From contig JAGVYA010000014.1 of assembly GCA_018303505.1 (NCBI GenBank), positions 1 to 32,372 on the forward strand: a stretch of DNA of 32,372 nucleotides. The letters are read 5' to 3'. Positions 2,803 through 14,100 of this stretch are shown here, piece after piece. This DNA is from Candidatus Woesearchaeota archaeon (lineage in GTDB: Archaea > Nanobdellota > Nanobdellia > Woesearchaeales > GW2011-AR4). A model generated the notes under the pieces. It searched no databases and was not told the origin of the DNA. It worked only from the letters and a program-made list of their open reading frames with translations. Within the stretch, counting starts at the first letter, position 1; each line of letters begins with the position of its first letter. The position numbers and the translations under genes are program-made.

Positions 2803-3150
2803 ATGTTAAAAAAGCCATATAAACTATTTTTCGGAACTTTGGCGAATAATCAAAGATTAGAGATTATAAACTTGCTTAGAAAAAGGCCAAGAAATGTGAC
2901 TCAAATCTGCAAAGAATTAAAGTTTAACCAGACCACACTATCTCATAATCTTGCAATATTAAAAAAATGCAGCTTTGTTTTTGCTAAGAAGAATGGAAAA
3001 GAAAGAGTTTACTCTCTTAATGCAAAGACCATCAAGCCTTTAATGGAACTTATTGATAATCACGCAGAAGAGTTTTGCAAATATCTCTGCGGATGTAAAA
3101 CTAAAAATAATGGAGGGAAATATAATGGCAAAAAGAGAACCTTGCTGTAA
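2803..3150 (+). CDS. ArsR-family winged-helix transcriptional regulator with Cys-containing C-terminus
   Basis: NNQRLEIINLLRKRPRNVTQICKELKFNQTTLSHNLAILKKCSFVFAKKNGKERVYSLN; C-terminal CKYLCGCK. TATA-like catttatatata about 30 nt upstream. Confidence 0.85.
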   Translation: MLKKPYKLFFGTLANNQRLEIINLLRKRPRNVTQICKELKFNQTTLSHNLAILKKCSFVFAKKNGKERVYSLNAKTIKPLMELIDNHAEEFCKYLCGCKTKNNGGKYNGKKRTLL

Positions 3151-3259
3151 TGGCGGAGTATGCCCTTCGTGCGATTGCTGTGTTTGTATTTGTACAAAGG
3201 AGTTAAAGAAACTACTCTCACCAGAAGCTAGAAAGTTGCTATTGAAAGAACTTGCTTGA
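3125..3259 (+). CDS. Small Cys-rich protein (44 aa), probably metal-binding
   Basis: In-frame ATG at 3125 preceded by ggaggg: MAKREPCCNGGVCPSCDCCVCICTKELKKLLSPEARKLLLKELA; overlaps the ArsR 3' end. Confidence 0.7.
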   Translation: MAKREPCCNGGVCPSCDCCVCICTKELKKLLSPEARKLLLKELA

Positions 3260-5205: not shown

Positions 5206-5232
5206 ATGGGAAAAGGAAAAGGCTGCTGTTAA
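5206..5232 (+). CDS. Candidate micro-ORF encoding MGKGKGCC
   Basis: ATG GGA AAA GGA AAA GGC TGC TGT TAA preceded by GGAGGT at 5193-5198; TATA-like ttattaaat upstream; first ORF ahead of glutaredoxin. A near-identical second copy lies at 12180-12215. An alternative in-frame ATG at 5191 gives MEVTKMGKGKGCC. Confidence 0.6.
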   Translation: MGKGKGCC

Positions 5233-5261: not shown

Positions 5262-5504
5262 ATGGCAAAAGCAACAAAAGTCAAGATTTACACTACAAGC
5301 ACGTGCCCTTGGTGCATTAAAACAAAGGAGTTTTTTAAAGCCAATAATGTCAAGTACGAGGAAGTCAATGTTGGAGAAGATGAAAAAGCAAGAAATGAGA
5401 TGTTCGAGAAGTCTGGGCAATTTGGAGTGCCTGTAACTGATGTTAACGGCACAATAATTGTTGGCTATGACAAGGAAGCTTTAAAAAAGGCGCTTAGCAT
5501 ATAA
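5262..5504 (+). CDS. Glutaredoxin / NrdH-like redoxin
   Basis: KIYTTSTCPWCIKTKEFFKANNVKYEEVNV...FGVPVTDVNGTIIVGYD; CPWC active site, cis-Pro VPV; SD gaggtg. Confidence 0.92.
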   Translation: MAKATKVKIYTTSTCPWCIKTKEFFKANNVKYEEVNVGEDEKARNEMFEKSGQFGVPVTDVNGTIIVGYDKEALKKALSI

Positions 5505-8189: not shown

Positions 8190-10808
8190 TTATGCTTTCC
8201 ATGTTTTCATCACCAGACTGTTGCTTACCACAGATACAGACGAAAATGCCATTGCTGCTCCTGCAATTATTGGATTTAATAAAAATCCGAAGAACGGAAA
8301 CAATAATCCGGCAGCTATCGGAATACCAGCTATATTGTAGAAAAATGCCCAGAACAAATTTTGCTTTATTTTTTTAATTGTATAAGAGCTTAGCTTTATT
8401 GCTGTTACAACATCTCTCAAATCATTTTTTATAAGAATAATCGAGCCTGTTTCAATTGCTACATCTGTTCCGGCTCCAATTGCAATGCCAACATCAGCTG
8501 CTGCAAGCGCAGGCGCGTCATTGATGCCATCTCCGACCATAGCAACTATCTTTCCTTGTTCCTGCATTTTCTTGATTTCCCTTTCCTTGTCCTGCGGAAG
8601 GACTTCTGCAACTACCTTATCGATTCCGACTTGTGCGGCAATTGCTTTTGCAGTTCTTTCATTATCTCCTGTAATCATCACAACTTCCTTGCCTAGCTTG
8701 TGCAGTTCTTCAACCGCTTGTTTTGAATTTTCCTTCAAAGTGTCTGCAATTGCAATAAGCCCTGCAATCGATTTATTTAAAGCAAGAATTATAGTTGTCT
8801 TTCCCTGCTCCTCAAGCTTTTTTATTTTTTCTTCTGCGTCATCGCTTATTTTTATATTGTGTTCGTGCATCAATTTGTCGTTTCCAATCAAAATGTTGTA
8901 ATTCTTGTAATTTGCAGTGATTCCTTTTCCGTGGATTGCTTGAAATTTGCTTGCTTCACTTATTGCAATTTGCCTGCTTTTTGCGAGATTTACGATTGCT
9001 TCTGCCAGAGGGTGTTCAGAGCTTTTTTCTGCTATGGCTACAAATTTCAGCACGTCGTTTTCAACATATTTCTTGTCAAGAACTGCAATATCTGTAACTT
9101 CGGGTTTTCCTTTTGTCAAGGTTCCTGTTTTATCGAAAACAATAGTTGTAAGTTTGTGGGCTGTTTCAAGCGCCTCTGCATTCTTAATCAATATGCCGTG
9201 CTCTGCACCTTTTCCAGTGCCGACCATTATAGCTGTAGGAGTTGCCAAGCCAAGAGCACAGGGGCAGGCTATTATCAATACAGCAATAAATATGGTAAAT
9301 GCAAAAATAAATGGATTGAATGTAAGATTTAGAAAACTTGGAGCGATGAAATACCAGAATAAAAATGAGATTACAGCAATTAATATAACAACTGGAACAA
9401 ATATGCTTGAAACCTTATCAGCTAGTCTTTGTATCGGCGCTTTTGAACCTTGCGCATCCTCAACAAGCTTTATGATTTGCGCAAGCATAGTGTCGCTTCC
9501 GACTTTTGTTGCCTCAACTTTGAAAGCTCCGCTTTTGTTTATTGTTGCTCCAATAACTTTATCATTTATATTCTTTGACACAGGCATGCTTTCTCCTGTC
9601 AACATTGATTCGTCAACATGAGAAGAGCCGGATATCACAACTCCGTCTGTCGGAATTTTCTGCCCTGGCTTGACAATGAAAACATCTCCTATCTGCAATT
9701 CATCTATTGGAATTTCTACTTCTTTGCCATTTCTTACTACAATAGCGGTTTTTGCCTGCAATCCTATAAGCTTTCTAATTGCTTCAGACGCTTTGCCTTT
9801 TGTAAGCGCTTCCAGATATTTTCCAAGCAGTATGAAAGTTATAATTATTGCTGAGGTGTCATAGTAAACATTTCCCGGAAATGTTTTTGGAAGAAAGGTT
9901 GCAAGCACGCTGTATATGTAAGCGGCGCCTGTGCCTACTGCAATCAGCGTGTCCATATTCGCTGTCTTGTTCATCAAACCTATGTAAGTGCCAGTGTAAA
10001 ATCTGTAGCCTAGAATAAGCTGTACTGGTGAAGCGAGAATCAGCAACACAAAATTCTGGTAAGGTATTATTATTTTAAACCATTCAGGAAATGATAAAAT
10101 AAAAATTGGAATGCTTAAAATAAATCCTGCTATAACTTCCCACTTTAATCTTCTTATTTCTCTTTGCCTCGCTTCTTTTTCCCTGTCATTGCTCAAGCCA
10201 GTCTGTTCAATTGCATCATAACCGGCATTTTTTATTGCCCTCTTTATTTCTTCAACGCTTGTCTGTTTAGGGTCATAACTGATAAAAGCATTTTCGTTTA
10301 TGTACAAATCTTTTGAAATAATTCCGTTGACAAGATTAAGAGCATCTTTAACAGTGCCAAGACAATGCGGATTGTCCATTCCGATGACTTTAAGCTTTAA
10401 CTCTACAACATTTGCAGAAGCGGCTGATTCAACAACTTTGTAGCCCGTTTTATTAATGGCTTTTTTCAATGATTCTTCATCAACTTGATATTTATCGAAT
10501 TCAACAGTTGCTTTTTCAGATGCGTAATTCACGCTCGCTCTTTTTACTCCTTTTGTTTTTGACAATGCCTTTTCGATTGTGTTTGCGCATGAAGCGCAAT
10601 GCATTCCTGAAACTGAAATTGTGCATTTTTGCATATTTGAATCGGACTTTGCTTCTGATGCGGGTTTCTCGTCGGCTTTTCCTGTGAATTTTTCATAACA
10701 GCTTTTGCTGCAGAAATAATAATTTTTGCCATTCTTCACAGTACTGAATTTAGTCTTTTTTGCATCAATTTCCATTCCACATACCGGGTCTTTTGCCATT
10801 TCCATCAC
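8190..10808 (-). CDS. copA: Copper-type P1B ATPase with N-terminal YHS/TRASH-like domain and two HMA-like domains
   Basis: [11 protein letters not shown]...[30 protein letters not shown] motif [47 protein letters not shown]. Confidence 0.95.
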
Positions 10809-10822
10809 TATAATTTAGACAT

Positions 10823-11023
10823 TCACTGGCTTTTATTATCTATCCCCATTAAATTGTGCAGCCAGCACCAGCCAAAAAAGCTCTCAATTAGTGCAATCCA
10901 GCCAACAATTGCTATTAGCCAGTTTGCCCATTCAATCCCAAACTTCGGAGCCCATGGACCTAGCCACCAAAATGCCAATGCAAACCTTAAAATCCTGTCA
11001 GTTTTGCCTAAATTTTGCTTCAT
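10823..11023 (-). CDS. DUF2892-like small membrane protein
   Basis: MKQNLGKTDRILRFALAFWWLGPWAPKFGIEWANWLIAIVGWIALIESFFGWCWLHNLMGIDNKSQ; SD gaggtg upstream of ATG 11023. Confidence 0.75.
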   Translation of the reverse strand: MKQNLGKTDRILRFALAFWWLGPWAPKFGIEWANWLIAIVGWIALIESFFGWCWLHNLMGIDNKSQ

Positions 11024-11033
11024 TCTTCTCACC

Positions 11034-11876
11034 TCACTCCAAATTCCAACTAAACTCTCTTCTTGCACTATCAGTTATAATAAGCTTAATAGATTTTGCG
11101 TTGCCATTTATTGATGGAAGTTTCAAAATGCCATTCCTGTGATGGCCGCCTGCAGGAAAACCTTCCCATTTCAATGGCTTGTAAGTGTTTCCAATATCAT
11201 CATATAAAATAGATATTTCAGTCAATTCAAAATCCAAGTCAACAGAATGTGTGTTAATTTCTATTTGGAACTCTGATGTGCTTAATGGCGTAACTTGAAA
11301 TTCTACATTGTTTTGATTATTTGTTAATGTTTGAAAATTTGTTTTTTGTTCTTTACCAAATGTATTTTTTGAAATTAAATAATATGATGTAAAAATGATA
11401 ATGACTGATATAACTAATAGCGAATATAACAATATCCTCAATTTTGATTTTTCAATTTTAAGATTCATCAAACTTGCCATATAAGTTATGCCCAATATAT
11501 TTGAAAAAATCCCCATTAGCAGAAAAGTTGATTGGTATTTTGTCAAGAATAAGCCTAATGCAGTAATCCCAAGAAAAGGAGCAATGTCTGCGATATGATG
11601 AGCGCAGCAAGCAACCATCGAAGTTGCTGAAACTCCAGAGGAAGCAGCAGCTTGTGCTGTTGCCTTTTTATGCATTTGCTCTTTGACATAAAAAAACATC
11701 CCAATTTGAATTCCAAATCCTGTAACCAATGGAATCATCCAATACCAAAGCTTTACAAAATTATTCAATGCAAAATTAACGCCGCCAAGCAAAGAAGCAA
11801 ATATAAAATAAAAAGCCAACAAAGAAAAGCTGGCAGCTAGCCCTTTCAATACAAATTTGTCATAATTTTCTTCCAT
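11034..11876 (-). CDS. Multi-pass membrane protein with ACCAHH motif and soluble C-terminal domain
   Basis: ATSMVACCAHHIADIAPFLGITALGLFLTKYQ; several helices then a beta-rich tail. Confidence 0.65.
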   Translation of the reverse strand: MEENYDKFVLKGLAASFSLLAFYFIFASLLGGVNFALNNFVKLWYWMIPLVTGFGIQIGMFFYVKEQMHKKATAQAAASSGVSATSMVACCAHHIADIAPFLGITALGLFLTKYQSTFLLMGIFSNILGITYMASLMNLKIEKSKLRILLYSLLVISVIIIFTSYYLISKNTFGKEQKTNFQTLTNNQNNVEFQVTPLSTSEFQIEINTHSVDLDFELTEISILYDDIGNTYKPLKWEGFPAGGHHRNGILKLPSINGNAKSIKLIITDSARREFSWNLE

Positions 11877-11885
11877 TCAAGCACC

Positions 11886-12161
11886 CTAAAACTTTTCTCC
11901 AAGCCAATTATAAATCAAGGCAAACACATAACCAACTACTGCACTGCTTAAGGCTACTACTATAAGCCCTATCACAGACTTTGCCAATGTCATATTCTTT
12001 GTTGCTATGCTTGAAATGTCAATGCCATGCACAAAATAATTGCTAACAGTTACTATTGTTTGCAGTGGAAAAATCGCTACAAAAGCAAGACAAACTAAAT
12101 ACACTAGCGCTGTTGTAATGCCTACCGACAAAGCCACAACATTTTTGTTTAACTTTTCCAT
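11886..12161 (-). CDS. Small membrane protein, DUF5676-like
   Basis: 91 aa, MEKLNKNVVALSVGITTALVYLVCLAFVAIFP..., two or three helices; SD GGAGG upstream. Confidence 0.65.
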   Translation of the reverse strand: MEKLNKNVVALSVGITTALVYLVCLAFVAIFPLQTIVTVSNYFVHGIDISSIATKNMTLAKSVIGLIVVALSSAVVGYVFALIYNWLGEKF

Positions 12162-12179: not shown

Positions 12180-12215
12180 TTAGCAACATCCTTTGCCTTT
12201 TTTTCCTTTTCCCAT
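12180..12215 (-). CDS. Candidate micro-ORF encoding MGKGKKGKGCC
   Basis: Minus strand TAATTAGGAGGTGTAAA ATG GGA AAA GGA AAA AAA GGC AAA GGA TGT TGC TAA; the SD begins right after the stop of the SDR gene, and the next gene has its own SD. Confidence 0.65.
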   Translation of the reverse strand: MGKGKKGKGCC

Positions 12216-12229
12216 TTTACACCTCCTAA

Positions 12230-12988
12230 TTATCTTGCAGTCCATCCTCCGTCAACAACAAGATTGTGACCTGTTATGAAGCTTGACTCGTCTAATGCAA
12301 GGAAAACAGCTGCATTTCCAATATCCTCTGGCTGCCCAAACCTTCCAACTGGAGTGTTTTCCAGCAGAATTTTTTTAGTTGCTTTATCATTAAGCATTGC
12401 TTTTGTCATATCTGTAACTATAACACCAGGGTCAATGGCGTTTACGGTTATGCCATAGTTCGCACAATCAAGAGCCACTTCCCTTGTTAATTCTGTTACC
12501 CCGCCTTTTGAGGCGCAGTAAGCGCTTATGCCTGGAAAACCAACTAAGCCTGCAATTGAAGAGATATTAATTATTCTGCCTCCTTTGCCTTGCTTGAGCA
12601 TTTGCTCCACAGCATACTTTGTGCAAAGAAAAACTCCTTTTAAATTGACGTCCATTTGCTTGTCCCAGTCTTTTTCTGTTAATGTAGTTACAGTCCCAGA
12701 TACAAGAATTCCTGCATTATTGACGAGAATGTCAACCTTGCCAAACTTTTTTACAGCTTTTGCCACTAAATTTTTTACATCCTTTTCCTTAGAAACATCT
12801 GCAACAACAAAAATTGCATCACTGCCAAGGCTTTTTATTTCTTCAACAACATCATCTGCGTCTTTGCTATGCTCATGCGAATTAACTACAACTTTGCAGC
12901 CTTCTTTAGCTAATGCGATTGCTACGCCTCTTCCAATGCCTCTGTTTGAGCCTGTAACAATTGCAACCTTGCTTTCCAATCTTTTCAT
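12230..12988 (-). CDS. SDR-family oxidoreductase, 3-oxoacyl-ACP reductase (FabG)-like
   Basis: VTGSNRGIGRGVA, LVNNAGI, ISSIAG, YCASKGG, DPGVIVTDM, VDGGWTAR. Confidence 0.92.
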   Translation of the reverse strand: MKRLESKVAIVTGSNRGIGRGVAIALAKEGCKVVVNSHEHSKDADDVVEEIKSLGSDAIFVVADVSKEKDVKNLVAKAVKKFGKVDILVNNAGILVSGTVTTLTEKDWDKQMDVNLKGVFLCTKYAVEQMLKQGKGGRIINISSIAGLVGFPGISAYCASKGGVTELTREVALDCANYGITVNAIDPGVIVTDMTKAMLNDKATKKILLENTPVGRFGQPEDIGNAAVFLALDESSFITGHNLVVDGGWTAR

Positions 12989-13051: not shown

Positions 13052-13525
13052 TCATAAATAGACTAGAATTATCAAGCCTATGACAAGCACCAGGGATAAA
13101 AAATTAAGAAAACCCCAATATCCAAGGCCATATCCTGAACCCATCATGCCATATCCAAAATTGTAGTTCATCATGTTCATCATTCCTCCACTCATCATAT
13201 TTATATTTTCATTACAATAAAGTCTTCTTGCCATATTGATATGAGTCTGCCTTAATGTCGCGGAGCCTTCACCACCCATCATCCTGTCCATAAGTTCATG
13301 CGCTTCTCCAGGATGCATCTGCTCCATCAAATAATCTCCAAGAATTTCTAGCTGGTTTTCTGTCAACTGCGAGCATGGAGTTTTTGCGTCAATAAGTTTC
13401 TTAGCTTCTGCAAAATCCTCAGTATGGGCTAGAACAAGGTTAATGCTTAAAGCAAAAATCAAAAAATACAATAAACCTTTTTTCAAATTAATACATTCCA
13501 ATTTTGAAAATCTATCTTTTGGCAT
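13052..13525 (-). CDS. Secreted/membrane Met- and Gly-rich protein, possible copper binding
   Basis: Signal-like FLIFALSINLVLAH; MHPGEAHELMDRMMGG; MMSGGMMNMMNYNFGYGMMGSGYG; C-terminal TM. Start at 13525 chosen over 13546 from the TATA-like AAGTTTAAATAG position. Confidence 0.65.
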   Translation of the reverse strand: MPKDRFSKLECINLKKGLLYFLIFALSINLVLAHTEDFAEAKKLIDAKTPCSQLTENQLEILGDYLMEQMHPGEAHELMDRMMGGEGSATLRQTHINMARRLYCNENINMMSGGMMNMMNYNFGYGMMGSGYGLGYWGFLNFLSLVLVIGLIILVYL

Positions 13526-13587
13526 ATCCGTTTTCGTAATTATCACGACTATTTAAACTTTTCTATTTATATCGGATTTTGATATAT

Positions 13588-13608: not shown

Positions 13609-13628
13609 GATGTTCGAGAATATATCTA

Positions 13629-13646
13629 TTTTCGACATATCGAAAA
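13629..13646. promoter_or_regulatory. Inverted repeat TTTTCGA-CATA-TCGAAAA (candidate operator)
   Basis: Perfect 7-bp arms just upstream of the TATA-like gatatttatata of the PadR-TRASH gene. Confidence 0.5.
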
Positions 13647-13686: not shown

Positions 13687-14100
13687 ATGGCAGATGTAAA
13701 AATAACCAATATGCTAAAATTCTATACACTATGCCTCTTGGCAACCGGTCCAAAACATGGCTATGATTTAATGAAAGAACTGGAAGAAAAGCTTGGAAGA
13801 AAAATAAGCTCCAGCAATGTATACCCCTTTTTAAATATTTTAAGAAAGAACAAATTAATAAAATTTGACAAAGTTGGAAAGAGGGACAAGAAAACATATT
13901 ATTTAACAACAGAAGGAAAAAATTTCACCAAAGGCATGTTCAATAAATTTGGGGATTTGATTGATGTCGCTATCGAGCCGAGAATATCAACATGCCCATG
14001 CGGTTGTAGGATTTATTCTGGAGGTTATACTGGAAAAATCAAAGGAAAAATGGTGAAGTTTTGCTGCTCGCATTGCGCAAAAACTTATAAGTCAAAATAA
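13687..14100 (+). CDS. PadR-family regulator with C-terminal TRASH-like metal-binding domain
   Basis: LCLLATGPKHGYDLMKELEEKLGRKISSSNVYPFLNILRKNKLI; CPCGCRIYSGGYTGKIKGKMVKFCCSHCAKTYKSK. ATG 13687 fits better than 13579. Confidence 0.8.
   Translation: MADVKITNMLKFYTLCLLATGPKHGYDLMKELEEKLGRKISSSNVYPFLNILRKNKLIKFDKVGKRDKKTYYLTTEGKNFTKGMFNKFGDLIDVAIEPRISTCPCGCRIYSGGYTGKIKGKMVKFCCSHCAKTYKSK

Follow-up and report, generated by a model that had tools for sequence, protein, structure and literature searches.

An 11-codon gene in a copper-ATPase operon

In the CopA operon of a Woesearchaeota MAG, a very short open reading frame sits between the genes for an SDR-family oxidoreductase and a DUF5676 protein, raising the question of whether it is a gene with a working product, a regulatory element acting in cis, or merely a spacer. 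We analyzed the whole 32,372-nucleotide stretch of DNA containing this operon, referred to here as the window; its features are listed in Table 1. The minus strand from 12230 to 12160 reads ...GCAAGATAA TT AGGAGGTG TAAA ATGGGAAAAGGAAAAAAAGGCAAAGGATGTTGCTAA ATAG AAGGAGG TTAAAAT ATGGAAAAG..., in which ATGGGAAAAGGAAAAAAAGGCAAAGGATGTTGCTAA encodes the 11-aa peptide MGKGKKGKGCC behind a perfect Shine-Dalgarno (SD) sequence. The SDR gene ends (...AGA TAA) directly before TT AGGAGGTG, and DUF5676 starts after ATAG AAGGAGG TTAAAAT. A pattern consisting of an SD, an ATG and a ...KGCC-stop end matches the window twice, exactly at 12180–12215 and 5206–5232, and gave no matches in 100 dinucleotide shuffles of the window (expected 0.00). 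An earlier, sequence-only reading had given the coordinates, peptide and SD of the first micro-ORF and had noted that it repeats the layout of the second; our reading agrees on each point, the second being a paralogue led by GGAGG. The 11-aa gene MGKGKKGKGCC is one that ordinary gene finding has overlooked.

Table 1. Features of the window and, in the last row, of related loci
Feature	Coordinates	Strand	Evidence
Micro-ORF MGKGKKGKGCC (focal micropeptide gene)	12180..12215	-	Direct sequence; family of 46 in order
Shine-Dalgarno AGGAGGTG of focal micro-ORF	12219..12226	-	Sequence; GAGG/GGAGG ending 5-9 nt before ATG in 46/46 copies
SDR-family oxidoreductase, upstream in operon	12230..12988	-	PF13561 1.1e-73
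DUF5676, two-TM protein, downstream gene	11886..12161	-	PF18926 E 5.7e-18
280-aa membrane protein with CC-H motif	11034..11876	-	No Pfam match; recurrent neighbour, 23/46 loci
YgaP-like TM domain protein	10823..11032	-	PF11127 9e-13
Copper-type P1B ATPase (CopA-type) with YHS and HMA domains	8190..10808	-	TIGR01511 1.4e-194, above cut-off; sole ATPase above it in this MAG
Met-rich secreted/membrane protein (ADAEDF family), operon's first gene, recurrent neighbour	13052..13546	-	ORF list, clustering
Palindrome ATATC-N7-GAYATAT, candidate operator	13569..13587	.	Exact match
Second palindrome copy	13622..13640	.	Exact match
Divergent PadR-type regulator with C-terminal TRASH-like CxCGC...FCCSHC metal motif	13687..14100	+	Sequence
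Paralogous micro-ORF MGKGKGCC, upstream of YruB-type glutaredoxin	5206..5232	+	SD GGAGG just before ORF
YruB-family glutaredoxin, after paralogous micro-ORF	5262..5504	+	TIGR02196 4.6e-28, above cut-off
Stand-alone Lys-rich SEC-C-motif microproteins	L021 7384-7470(-); L201 674-775(+); L202 2334-2402(-); L203 911-994(+)		

Distribution of the family

Relatives, the genus, the order and the phylum were searched with a strict pattern first and a loose one afterwards (SD, ATG, free interior, Lys-Gly-Cys-Cys-stop), and reading frames were checked; a peptide of this length is out of reach of HMM, structure or protein-database searches and cannot be in HMM libraries. Within the order there are 46 SD-led copies encoding 24 distinct peptides, in 30 of 362 genomes and six families. 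They occur in 17 of the 20 genomes of the genus, in 5 of 16 in the rest of its family, and in 8 of 326 elsewhere, spread over five further families; the three genomes of the genus without a match are 71–81% complete. Members are 8–12 aa long with the form M-x-K-x-K-(x)n-K-G-C-C-stop, ECC and CGC ends being rare, and typical ones are MGKGKSKGCC, MGKDKMKGKGCC, MEKGKKGKGCC, MGKGKKGCC, MGKGKGKGCC, MDKGKGKGCC, MPKGKGKGCC and MAKGKGKGCGC. About 60 matches to the pattern were obtained in the 362 genomes, 43 of them in-frame family members, compared with three for a reversed control pattern. Variants ending in KGCGC (MAKGKGKGCGC and MTKAKGKGCGC) are found in two genomes, at L217 6017–6052(-) and L206 1474–1509(+), upstream of a thioredoxin-reductase-like gene.

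A pattern scan of 177 genomes of the class outside the order gave chance matches only. The scan outside the phylum used the strict form, leaving out other start residues, and among 85,488 species (GTDB) in-frame SD-led micro-ORFs were found only in Woesearchaeota, plus one chance case; the micro-ORFs of the window's genus are also present in named Candidatus Woesearchaeota contigs. Bacterial matches of the strict pattern were mostly 47-nt out-of-frame chance occurrences, with one in-frame chance case (L097), and none of 65 strict-pattern matches in a viral collection was in frame. Two further types of candidate were rejected: in several genomes (L035, L040) a MAKGK... start reads as that of EF-1 alpha and not of the peptide, and longer proteins ending in KGCC, considered as possible fusions, were short, unrelated and attributable to chance among the loci returned by the search. 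No Lys/Gly-rich members were seen in a looser ...CC-stop scan of 16 genomes lacking the motif, and no clear homologues in the DUF5676 regions of 20 loci lacking it. In or near DUF5676 metal loci of other families we observed SD-led, Lys-rich, Cys-ended mini-ORFs, at L268 6328–6378(-) (MAKKKKKESKQCCCNC) and L276 372–452(-) (MFDWFKKKKTEEDEKDRKPKKPSCCH), which are possible functional analogues.

We found no entry describing the family in Pfam, NCBIfam or the literature and no literature on Woesearchaeota micropeptides; the peptide strings matched only in an unrelated paper on amphibian peptides. The copies constitute a lineage-specific family of conserved micropeptides of 8–12 aa, with a flexible Gly/Lys body and a C-terminal vicinal Cys pair.

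Selection on the peptide

All 46 copies have two Cys in their 8–12 residues, as one pair only, and all keep an SD-to-start spacing of 5–9 nt. The Cys codons are mixed (54 TGC and 38 TGT), as are those for Gly and Lys, and all three stops are used (30 TAA, 10 TAG and 6 TGA). At interior codons, which the loose search pattern leaves unconstrained, pN/pS is 0.39 over all same-length comparisons, and it falls near zero in sets from the same context; for example, four copies of MGKGKKGCC have a pS of 0.69 and a pN of 0. In alignments of three unrelated contexts, the SD and ORF form a conserved block and the flanks drift; in that of the f77-family set, conservation also extends to the T-tracts that follow the stop and to a stretch preceding the SD. 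The family thus meets the criteria for a protein-coding gene, namely SD, start, stop and selection at the amino-acid level, and we have very little doubt that the micro-ORF is translated and under selection.

Metal and thiol neighbourhood

At least one of a set of metal or thiol genes lies within 6 kb of 42 of the 46 copies: CopA (24 copies), PadR-TRASH (16), DUF5676 (12), CcdA (12), glutaredoxin (10), DUF302 (6), OsmC (5), TrxR (5) and MerA (4), the TrxR and CcdA identities being our reading of sequences without a library match. In genome G014, a MerA that scores above the TIGR02053 cut-off and itself ends in vicinal Cys (ACCVE) is followed 44 nt later by MGRGKGCC. Eleven of 23 copies in 12 genomes of the genus are within 10 kb of a full-length Cu-ATPase, mostly one per genome (P about 1e-13, from a simple binomial that ignores relatedness). 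DUF5676 is present in 19 of 30 genomes with the peptide and 35 of 332 without it (P 1.5e-10), and outside the window's own family in 5 of 8 and 35 of 318 respectively (P 9e-4). Since operons are shared between related genomes, these context statistics lack independence, and the 35 genomes of the order that have DUF5676 without the peptide count against the explanation we favour. There are also exceptions: three related f77-family copies (L224, L225 and L226, around 6000, 3515 and 6041) are lone mini-genes with conserved T-tracts after them, located away from metal genes between genes that we read from their sequences as transketolase and DAHP synthase. The link to copper proposed in the sequence-only reading is supported but too narrow, since glutaredoxin, MerA, TrxR and OsmC neighbourhoods also recur.

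Elsewhere in the window, a 44-aa Cys-rich small protein (MAKREPCCNGGVCPSCDCCVCICTKELKKLL..., 3128–3259, plus strand) overlaps the end of an ArsR/SmtB-type regulator gene (2803–3150).

Putative regulation

For the regulator divergent from the copper operon, relative L016 gives a match to PF03551 (4.4e-14); the match there to TRASH_HVO_1752_C (1.9e-5, a score of 25.2 against a cut-off of 27) falls below the gathering score and is a near match only. The palindrome ATATC-N7-GAYATAT has two exact matches in the window (expected 0.01), both between the PadR-TRASH gene and the copper operon. Where the micropeptide gene comes first (L016, L017, L023, L199 and L207), the same palindrome stands shortly before its SD, and these leader copies begin about 34 nt after the palindrome start, beside PadR-TRASH. 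Judged by sequence alone, the two palindromes, conserved in relatives, likely form an operator. In Pyrococcus the TRASH regulator CopR acts on the divergent copA via a semi-palindrome (PMC7830388), and by analogy this is the closest described arrangement that we found for the PadR-TRASH locus.

SEC-C mini-genes upstream of the micropeptide

A Lys-rich ORF of 22–33 aa with a SEC-C zinc motif (e.g. MGKKKGKKMKGKMCACGSGKPYSKCCGA) ends 17–26 nt before the micropeptide in four glutaredoxin loci; PF02810 scores are 22.8 bits for L021, above the 20.4 cut-off, and 19.1 for L202, below it. The micropeptides share with the SEC-C motif (PF02810; CxCGSGKxxxxCC in the SecA metal-binding tail) the order of Gly/Lys and then vicinal Cys, but the complete motif, CxCG(S)GKxxxxCC, is not met: its first CxC half is missing, and a micropeptide could not form a mononuclear Zn site alone. 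The resemblance between the bodies of the SEC-C microproteins and of the micropeptides suggests common descent or a shared partner, although this is an inference. In SecA the SEC-C tail, a metal-binding module with positive charge, is able to contact ribosomes (PMC6620043), so that ribosome binding is a further possible lead for the micropeptides.

Position in operons and action in cis

A possible alternative to a product acting in trans is a regulatory ORF acting in cis, at which ribosomes on Lys and Cys codons near a U-tract terminator or the next SD would respond to cysteine, to translation damaged by copper or to thiol status and adjust expression of the gene that follows. Consistent with such a role, several copies open a transcript next to the PadR regulator, and in many loci, including the glutaredoxin set, oligo-T separates the stop from the next gene. 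Oligo-T is the usual archaeal terminator form, and copies followed by such tracts presumably end a transcript or precede a terminator; the focal copy has none. More than half of the copies nevertheless follow a same-strand gene, 18 of the 46 starting within 50 nt after one; in 10 the preceding gene is divergent, and others lie farther away. The gap to the next gene downstream varies from none to over 200 nt, and some copies face a convergent gene instead. Copies are first, middle or last in operons, some ending them with no close gene downstream, and the downstream gene may be DUF5676, YgaP, glutaredoxin, CcdA, a 140-aa membrane protein or none. The location in a 5' leader expected of a cysteine-responsive leader ORF or attenuator is thus not met, and RNA folding revealed no structure beyond shuffles (z -0.4 to 1.1). 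The conservation of the non-Cys part is also not accounted for by sensing of cysteine, and two Cys codons with freely exchanged synonyms would make a weak sensor.

There are precedents for both Cys-rich upstream ORFs and intergenic small ORFs. Mycobacterial polycysteine leader ORFs (Canestrari et al. 2020, as cited in PMC9094748) are likewise very short Cys-codon ORFs of thiol-related operons; the micropeptide differs in being SD-led and not leaderless, in taking any operon position, and in having a conserved Lys/Gly body and no fixed downstream gene. Salmonella MgtQ is also a tiny ORF between genes of a metal-transport operon, but it acts via RNA stem-loops and acidic residues (PMC8092293), and no such structure is present at the micropeptide.

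For the interval between SDR and DUF5676, we observe in relatives the orders SDR-OsmC-peptide-DUF5676 (L199), SDR-DUF302-peptide-x-DUF5676 (L018) and DUF302-peptide-DUF5676 (L222), and the spacing to the next gene is not conserved (18 to ~390 nt), although the peptide and SD are kept. A spacer not conserved in length and sequence had been named beforehand as grounds for refuting a functional product, and for spacing this rule is literally met; however, an ORF that is kept while its spacer and neighbours change argues for the peptide, and the logic should be reversed. The accompanying preference for a functional product over a classic 5' attenuator gains support from the amino-acid conservation, the varying positions and next genes and the lack of RNA structure, with function inferred from conservation. 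Because operon position and next genes vary and no RNA structure is evident, neither a cis attenuator nor a spacer explains the family, and we consider a mainly cis-acting role unlikely. That neighbours and spacers change and the peptide stays argues for a trans-acting product, but we cannot exclude an extra cis role for the leader copies.

Other products and chance

There is a slim possibility that the product is modified and exported, as a RiPP-type precursor or signal peptide comparable to a pared-down precursor of microcin C or methanobactin. Microcin C MccA, a heptapeptide (PMC6495379), illustrates that very short encoded precursors exist, and its free-standing 7-codon gene is of comparable size. 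The micropeptide, however, has no leader, no exporter and no modification genes that we could see, and is not part of an antibiotic cluster; no radical SAM, YcaO, ThiF/MccB or DUF692 protein recurs among the neighbour clusters, only part of which were domain-scanned.

The chance that the peptide is instead lipid-linked, being isoprenylated or palmitoylated and anchoring or sensing at the archaeal membrane, is slimmer still. A polybasic stretch with a C-terminal Cys-Cys may resemble Rab-type prenylation ends, 44 of the 46 copies have CC directly at the stop after a polybasic body, and many neighbours are membrane proteins. On the other hand, no recurrent prenyltransferase-like gene was seen in the neighbour clusters, which were not exhaustively annotated, and both the metal/thiol context and the variants with CGC ends are more in keeping with thiol chemistry. 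A spacer or translational-coupling ORF without product function, or a chance ORF, is largely refuted and scarcely credible even for an ORF this short and intergenic, given the absence of matches in shuffles, conservation at the peptide level and unconserved spacing to neighbours.

A proposed role for the micropeptides

Comparison of the copies indicates that, on the sequence evidence available, the family is SD-led, under purifying selection at the amino-acid level, independent of position and clustered with metal and thiol-redox genes. We consider it reasonably probable that the product is a trans-acting cationic dithiol micropeptide that handles Cu(I)/Hg(II) or serves as an encoded thiol, although this chemistry is inferred and there are no expression, translation, peptide or metal-binding data. 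The micropeptide would be co-expressed with the copper/thiol operon, the PadR-TRASH regulator placing both under metal control. Its Cys-Cys end, in the cytosol, could bind a soft metal such as Cu(I) or Hg(II), alone or as a dimer, and the loaded micropeptide may hand the metal to CopA or MerA. Alternatively, the micropeptide might be kept reduced by glutaredoxin or TrxR as an encoded small thiol that exchanges disulfides. For either form of trans-acting dithiol, the Gly/Lys body would be a flexible cationic handle favouring docking to acidic partners or the membrane.

Two groups of known molecules resemble such a product. Like metallothioneins and CopZ-type chaperones, as in the archaeal cop cluster CopA-CopR-CopT/CopM (PMC7830388), it is small, based on Cys and encoded alongside a Cu-ATPase and a TRASH-type regulator; unlike them it has 8–12 aa with a single Cys pair at the very C-terminus, is unable to adopt an HMA or TRASH fold and shows no sequence relationship to them. 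The second group comprises thiols of the glutathione/phytochelatin type, which would share with the micropeptide the inferred role of a small soluble thiol and soft-metal ligand near glutaredoxin, MerA and TrxR, but are made by ligases and not by the ribosome from a gene. A bolder proposal, which we regard as possible rather than probable, is that Woesearchaeota encode their small thiol directly. The unmodified product of 8–12 codons would then be the ribosome-made equivalent of glutathione/phytochelatin, acting as a soluble soft-metal ligand and redox thiol for CopA, MerA, glutaredoxin and thioredoxin reductase.

We conclude that this is a new kind of family, of encoded dithiol micropeptides whose function is inferred, that is neither a complete SEC-C motif nor a leader-only ORF and has no evident RiPP cluster. 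Archaeal genes of only 8–12 codons, much too short for annotation cut-offs, can be conserved and amplified and can be redistributed among operons. If action in cis were true instead, these would be an archaeal class of position-independent regulatory ORFs, also new. If the directly encoded small thiol is true, the micropeptides would be among the smallest conserved protein families known; and should they prove to bind Cu(I)/Hg(II) or to exchange disulfides, an encoded low-molecular-weight thiol system would exist in uncultured DPANN archaea and would bear on how these organisms handle soft metals.
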